A DNA stretch of 64,000 nt, taken from assembly GCF_000165735.1 (NCBI RefSeq), contig NZ_GL538208.1:808074-872073 (forward strand), written 5' to 3'. The first letter of the stretch is position 1, and each line of letters opens with the position of its first letter. The position numbers and the translations under genes were made by a program. The stretch is from Megasphaera micronuciformis F0359 (GTDB lineage: Bacteria; Bacillota; Negativicutes; Veillonellales; Megasphaeraceae). Below are positions 15,472-16,873 of the stretch, piece by piece. The notes beneath the pieces are model-generated. The model searched no databases, was not told the DNA's origin, and worked only from the letters and a program-made list of their open reading frames with translations.

Positions 15472-15500
15472 AGTATATACGAAGAGTTCACGCCTGTCAA
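15472..15500 (-). promoter_or_regulatory. Strong promoter of the ylxM-ffh-rpsP-trmD-yebC operon
   Basis: Minus strand TTGACA (15495-15500), 17-base spacer, TATACT (15472-15477). Both boxes fall in or beside an imperfect 20-bp inverted repeat (15482-15501 / 15510-15529), whose T-run lies on the plus strand only. Confidence 0.85.
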
Positions 15501-15534
15501 GTATTACTACTTGTCAGGTGTGAACTCTTTATTT

Positions 15535-16710: not shown

Positions 16711-16736
16711 CTGTACCTCCCGTTTAATAGACAAAC

Positions 16737-16833
16737 AAAAAAACCGACACCTCCGGAACCAAATGCCCAGACGGTCGGCTGTAATCGGTCATGCTCCCCG
16801 TGGTTAACTCCACTTTCCGTCAGTCACATGACT
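16737..16833 (-). ncRNA. ZTP (pfl) riboswitch with terminator
   Basis: On the minus strand the leader shows GTGACTGACGG, then a GTGG..ACCAC hairpin followed by GGGGAGC, and the 3' element CCGTCTGGGCA (16764-16774), in the order and spacing of the pfl/ZTP motif; ACGG and CCGT form the long-range pairing. Downstream, CCGAC (16774-16778 complement) and GTCGG (16744-16748 complement) form a terminator stem ending in a T-run at 16737-16743, sharing bases with the aptamer 3' strand. ZTP/ZMP binding should prevent termination and turn on the AICAR transformylase. Confidence 0.92.
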
Positions 16834-16843
16834 TTCCTTATTT

Positions 16844-16873
16844 ATTATACAGAACGGGTCGAACCCTTGTCAA
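16844..16873 (-). promoter_or_regulatory. Promoter of the ZTP riboswitch-AICAR formyltransferase unit
   Basis: Minus strand TTGACA (16868-16873), 18-base spacer, TATAAT (16844-16849), placing the transcript start a few bases before the aptamer. Confidence 0.88.

Follow-up and report, generated by a model that had tools for sequence, protein, structure and literature searches.

The window (the whole 64,000-nucleotide stretch of DNA analysed here) encodes on its minus strand an AICAR formyltransferase, preceded by a leader that contains a sigma-70-like promoter, a match to the ZMP/ZTP riboswitch family, and a predicted terminator hairpin (Table 1). ZMP (AICAR) is the substrate of AICAR formyltransferase. 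The preliminary description of this DNA had called the enzyme stand-alone, and its score against NF005492, far above the cut-off, bears this out. The protein aligns to residues 202-592 of PURH in PDB 1p4r (E 7e-145), which we take to be the human enzyme, and so corresponds to its C-terminal formyltransferase part. The Pfam domain AICARFT_IMPCHas is matched at model positions 75-311 only and the MGS domain is absent, so that no cyclohydrolase domain is present. Residues of the AICAR site are conserved in the alignment to 1p4r: Tyr8, Lys67, and His68 are unchanged, Lys7 takes the place of an arginine, and Asn230, Arg250, Phe341, and Arg387, presumably AICAR-site residues as well, are also kept. 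The residue list in the available part of PMC3261824 agrees with the first four once shifted by one number; its numbers for the remaining four do not fit.

Table 1. Features of the formyltransferase gene and its leader (positions in the window).
Feature	Position	Strand	Evidence
Promoter -35 box, TTGACA	16868..16873	-	identical in 15/15 family leaders
Promoter -10 box, TATAAT, 18-nt spacer	16844..16849	-	same in 14/15 family leaders, TATACT in one
ZMP/ZTP riboswitch aptamer (RF01750)	16758..16837	-	59.3 bits, gathering cut-off 39
P1, 5' strand	16826..16832	-	pairs with 16788-16794; all 7 P1 pairs vary on both sides among 31 aptamers
Pseudoknot 5' strand, GACGG	16817..16821	-	pairs with 16770-16774
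P1, 3' strand	16788..16794	-	pair counts over 31 aptamers
P3 hairpin, GCC...GGC	16765..16779	-	helix 4, all cells paired (100%), mostly imposed by the search pattern
Pseudoknot 3' strand, CCGTC	16770..16774	-	also within the terminator 5' arm; folding and pair counts
Predicted terminator hairpin using P3 and pseudoknot strands	16742..16780	-	-19.8 kcal/mol, z -3.3
Invading (3') terminator arm	16744..16757	-	10/14 columns identical in 15/15 family leaders
Terminator T-run, seven T	16737..16743	-	sequence and family leaders
Ribosome binding site, GGGAGG	16716..16721	-	by eye
Stand-alone AICAR formyltransferase (PurH1), 391 aa	15535..16710	-	NF005492, 718 bits, cut-off 415

The aptamer was first read by eye, and the preliminary description proposed a covariance search with the Rfam model RF01750 (ZMP/ZTP riboswitch). 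In the 64-kb window this search returned a clear minus-strand match well above the gathering cut-off, covering model positions 1-86 of 86, and it is the sole RF01750 match there. All three aptamer motifs that had been named lie on the minus strand within the span originally given, 16873 to 16737, which runs from the start of the -35 box to the end of the T-run; both motifs and coordinates were right. The promoter, described earlier as strong, agrees with the consensus at 12 of 12 positions. That the aptamer is a chance match to the model has a negligible probability: its E value is 4.4e-7 in 64 kb, the promoter and the gene stand in the right order around it, and 15 of 16 family genomes have it in the same position (see below).

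The window shares with RF01750 the helices P1, P2, and P3, the pseudoknot, a terminator that overlaps the 3' part, and a purine or one-carbon gene behind it. At one pseudoknot pair the Rfam consensus letters are G-C and the window has A-U, a common variant that is found in 27 of 31 aptamers (G-C in three, G-U in one). These 31 aptamers, of which the window's is itself one, form the rows of our model R1, which scores the window aptamer at 81.6 bits. Over 20 pairs, 96.5% of cells are paired, against 88.4% after shuffling and at most 44.7% after sliding; changes on both sides occur at 10 of the 20 pairs, seven of them in P1, and the covariation score is 0.309 versus 0.146 shuffled. The pairing of P1, P2, P3, and the pseudoknot is thus backed by covariation among the 31 aptamers. 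Within P3 itself no pair changes on both sides in this set. The rows were collected with a motif pattern in which P3 and the pseudoknot are largely prescribed and P1 is free, so that part of the invariance seen in P3 and in most of the pseudoknot follows from how the rows were chosen. Folded alone by an energy model that omits the pseudoknot, the aptamer is not more stable than shuffled sequences (z 0.39, 125/200 as good). The evidence that argues for the predicted aptamer is its covariance score, the pair counts over the 31 aptamers, and its conservation.

Energy folding also indicates how the aptamer may be read out. As the preliminary description held, the terminator shares bases with the 3' part of the aptamer: the 5' arm of the hairpin contains the P3 bases and the pseudoknot 3' strand, so that the ligand-competent aptamer and the terminator are predicted to be mutually exclusive. 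None of 200 shuffled sequences folded as well as the hairpin, which was not listed by a simple terminator scan of the window; the whole leader is only moderately more stable than shuffles (z -1.72, 12/200 as good). Among 27 leaders that we compared, 26 contain a T-run, and in 25 most of the pseudoknot strand is paired within the terminator. The exceptions are L037 (genome G263), which has no T-run in the next 40 nt, and L049, where the terminator uses the 3' side of P3 only. With the aptamer arm held fixed, the downstream segments fold better than the shuffled mean in all 26 leaders with a T-run, and at the 5% level in 18 of them. The window leader beats its shuffles weakly in this comparison (z -1.24, 33/300 as good), partly because the segment cut dropped the last bases of the stem. 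A leader such as L037, with an aptamer and no nearby T-run, would suit control at translation rather than transcription. In the window, however, seven T follow the hairpin and the ribosome binding site lies outside it, and we regard translational control of this gene as highly improbable.

Competition between aptamer and terminator has been measured in the Fusobacterium ulcerans ZTP riboswitch (PMC7484762) and the C. beijerinckii pfl riboswitch (PMC10085676). According to the available parts of these reports, an invading arm displaces P3 and the pseudoknot, as predicted for the window, and the invader is imperfect, with a bulge and a mismatch. The C. beijerinckii riboswitch is named for pfl, whereas that predicted in the window precedes a stand-alone formyltransferase. 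T16749, invariant in the invading arm, is unpaired in the predicted terminator. Since non-complementary invader elements tune the ON level in the system of PMC10085676, as described in the part of that paper at hand, this conserved imperfection may be functional.

We consider it very probable that the leader is a ZTP (pfl) riboswitch of the transcription-terminating, ligand-ON type placed before an AICAR formyltransferase. The aptamer, the promoter, the overlap with the terminator, the identity of the gene, and the conservation that underlie this assignment are computed. By analogy with the riboswitch family, from which we infer the transcription start, the ligand, the ON direction, and the physiological role, RNA polymerase would start near 16837 and transcribe the aptamer first. 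With ZMP or ZTP bound, P3 and the pseudoknot would hold, the invading arm could displace neither, and transcription would read through into the formyltransferase gene. When the ligand is scarce, the invading arm would strip P3 and the pseudoknot, the terminator would form, and transcription would stop at the T-run. A shortage of 10-formyl-THF, or a purine flux in excess of the formyltransferase, would then raise ZMP and induce the enzyme that consumes it; the product of fhs, which lies behind a second ZTP aptamer, would make the formyl donor. The substrate-activation loop that the preliminary description proposed is supported on the same analogy, because the leader matches RF01750, the gene is a stand-alone formyltransferase, and ZMP is its substrate; the overlap of terminator and aptamer agrees with a switch of the ligand-ON type.

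In kind, such a riboswitch is ordinary. The parts of the literature available to us summarise ZMP/ZTP as the ligand (PMC7266159) and list purH among the five genes most often found behind this RNA, activation having been inferred from terminators that overlap its 3' part (Weinberg 2010, PMC2864571). They also include whole-riboswitch covariation models, ZTP among them (PMC13273304), a C. metallidurans pfl-glyA reporter that rises with trimethoprim (PMC10882993), and a review that names ‘predominantly purH’ among purine genes (PMC10912719). Both the mechanism and the association with purH are therefore already published (PMC2864571, PMC7484762, PMC10085676), and purH-associated ZTP riboswitches have as ligand a compound that the encoded enzyme uses as its substrate (PMC2864571), as predicted for the window. 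Less usual is that the enzyme is encoded by half of a gene that is usually fused: unlike purH-associated riboswitches, that of the window precedes the formyltransferase half only.

The arrangement is well conserved. All 17 family genomes contain a ZTP aptamer, and 16 contain the formyltransferase above cut-off (completeness of the 17th, 83%). The aptamer precedes the gene by 38-61 nt on the same strand in 15 of these 16. Across the 15 leaders the aptamer core is nearly as invariant as the -35 box, and the loop of the terminator hairpin is variable. The formyltransferase was matched in two pieces in G003:C40 and G006:C20 (L024-L027), which may reflect a frameshift or an assembly error.

Genome G008 pairs with the window genome in the protein tree (support 98), and its formyltransferase gene has none of the promoter, aptamer, and terminator seen in the window. 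The gene there directly follows the counterpart of the window's Asp23-domain gene (a neighbour assigned by eye), with a stop-to-start gap of 52 nt versus 183 in the window. In its locus (L022) no Rfam family matched with an E value of 1 or below, and R1 gave just 10.3 bits (E 0.94), at another place in that locus; the genome, 89% complete, has one ZTP aptamer elsewhere. ZTP control can thus be lost, as the nearest neighbour in the tree lacks the aptamer.

Two further leaders of the same gene, L036 and L045 from relatives, have a promoter-like box and a T-rich stretch (both by eye), no aptamer, and no match to an Rfam riboswitch or to R1. They could hold another sensor. In 16 loci without a ZTP aptamer, an Rfam scan at E up to 0.5 found no riboswitch before the formyltransferase; two cobalamin matches are located beyond the gene, on the opposite strand. 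Leaders such as L036 and L045 indicate that this gene can have a promoter and T-rich leader without ZTP sensing, and the window aptamer might by extension be a relic, or a variant for another ligand, with a terminator that attenuates constitutively. We judge this very unlikely given an aptamer that scores well above the Rfam cut-off and is kept in 15 of 16 family genomes, the covariation of P1 and of one pseudoknot pair, and a second copy in the genome before fhs. Read as a ZTP riboswitch, the leader identifies, by curated model and conservation, a purine step whose own substrate should induce it in a group of anaerobes.

In this genome PurH is split: the formyltransferase lies behind the ZTP aptamer and the cyclohydrolase half elsewhere. 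The latter is a 204-aa protein with the MGS domain and the N-terminal part of AICARFT_IMPCHas, encoded between purN and purD in a cluster with the order purE, purF, purM, purN, cyclohydrolase, purD; the five named genes each score above their NCBIfam cut-offs, and purC is also present in the genome. A genome-wide RF01750 search found two ZTP aptamers, the PurH1 leader and one before fhs, and none at the purE-F-M-N-D cluster with the cyclohydrolase half. Both aptamers therefore stand before a purine or one-carbon gene. The fhs gene is clearly identified (918 bits, cut-off 652) and is followed by an fchA-like gene that scores below its cut-off (149 bits, cut-off 275). The product of Fhs, 10-formyl-THF, is the co-substrate and formyl donor of AICAR formyltransferase, so the same sensor stands before both the gene for the ZMP-consuming enzyme and the gene that supplies its formyl donor. 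Histidine synthesis was considered as an additional source of ZMP and set aside: hisF had only sub-cut-off matches in the genome (best 20.8 bits, cut-off 294.55; genome 98% complete), and ZMP there should thus come from purine synthesis alone. The sensor would then be simpler to read than in bacteria that make histidine. The genome also offers a test case for gene splitting, in which a ZMP-sensing leader precedes the half whose substrates are ZMP and 10-formyl-THF, and the other half has none. Separate PurH1 and PurH2 are an archaeal feature and bacterial PurH is nearly always fused, according to the parts of PMC6797443 and PMC3261824 at hand. The literature searched, some of it in partial text, made no mention of a split formyltransferase behind a ZTP riboswitch, which may still be in print.

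Splitting and ZTP control are associated across the phylum. In a sample of 299 genomes, 40 have a split formyltransferase above cut-off. ZTP aptamers were found in 52 genomes (72 aptamers), which are lower bounds owing to stricter filters. The genes behind the 72 aptamers are pflB (26), the formyltransferase directly (16), an OFA-type MFS transporter (9), fhs (7), a TIGR01440 gene then glyA (4), a PurO-like cyclohydrolase then formyltransferase (3), and fused purH (2), with single cases of pflA (then pflB), a purE cluster, folD, a phosphoglycerate-dehydrogenase-like gene, and an unidentified gene. Genes were assigned from profile coordinates for the formyltransferase and by BLAST of 55 regions, with single family-checked proteins as references; the fhs of the window genome was identified separately. 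An aptamer precedes the formyltransferase in 19 of the 40 split-gene genomes versus 2 of the 244 whose matches are all below cut-off and of the fused type (Fisher p 1e-16), a contrast between related genomes in which the 244 were not inspected singly and a purH would escape notice if it stood farther than about 2.7 kb behind an aptamer. Counted by family, with families counted by hand, the contrast is 7/16 versus 1/102 (p 2e-6). In a tree of 131 stand-alone formyltransferases, aptamer presence requires 13 changes, at least nine of them on well supported branches (five labels were corrected by hand).

Several of the other arrangements deserve separate mention. The OFA-type transporter follows the aptamer at L143, L148, L153, L169, L170, L176, L181, L182, and L186; against NF049980 (‘L-lactate MFS transporter’) L143 scores above cut-off and L186 below, and the other seven were assigned by BLAST to L143. 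As a guess, this transporter may import formate for Fhs; a literature search for a ZTP riboswitch with a formate transporter found no paper. At L188, L189, and L190 (G157, G261, and G085) the aptamer is followed by a PurO-like IMP cyclohydrolase, called by PF07826 in L188 and by BLAST in the other two, and then by the formyltransferase of the stand-alone kind, which pairs PurO with PurH1 in bacteria. The TIGR01440 gene that precedes glyA at L165, L172, L175, and L177 belongs to a family without an assigned function.

We also examined named relatives, keeping the best 80 of at least 593 confirmed. The nearest named neighbours in the protein tree are records from Phascolarctobacterium, Acidaminococcaceae, and Selenomonadales, which points to Negativicutes, perhaps to a Megasphaera-like genus. 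Model R1 placed an aptamer in 6 of the 80 loci, all six of which are rows of R1 already found by the pattern. An independent RF01750 search of the 80 whole genomes found a ZTP aptamer somewhere in 16 (15/50 and 1/30), and its coordinates put the same six at the formyltransferase, within 270 nt at L056, L057, L059, and L093 and at 0.8-1.05 kb at L064 and L092. A further aptamer, in G327 (L070), is left out of this count; it may lie some 3.6 kb upstream, provided that both are on one contig. Going by record titles, Bacteroidota account for 41 of these best 80; all 41 have the split gene and none has a ZTP aptamer anywhere in its genome. Splitting therefore does not entail ZTP control.

With these data in mind, we tentatively propose that the splitting of PurH lets its ZMP-consuming half come under ZMP control. 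On this proposal, aptamers before the formyltransferase in the phylum would occur almost only at split genes and would have been gained or lost several times, and the ‘purH’ association in the literature may, in this phylum, refer for the most part to the stand-alone enzyme. A small regulon with fhs, joined in larger relatives by the OFA-type transporter, would pull ZMP forward at the folate-limited step, and the other purine genes would be controlled otherwise. We hold this to be possible rather than probable, and our confidence, never above even, was lowered slightly because all 41 Bacteroidota split-gene genomes lack the aptamer. Of our reading as a whole, the literature searched, in part as incomplete texts, lacked a counterpart only for the connection between PurH splitting and ZTP control.

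Two other features of the window may be recorded. Between the formyltransferase gene and ylxM lies an imperfect long hairpin (15482-15529, minus strand; -28.8 kcal/mol, z -7.6) that holds the -35 box of an 11/12 promoter match (15500-15472) and is a candidate terminator, operator, or both. Further along, a T-box leader at 30384-30177 on the minus strand scores 103.8 bits, above the gathering cut-off of 93.
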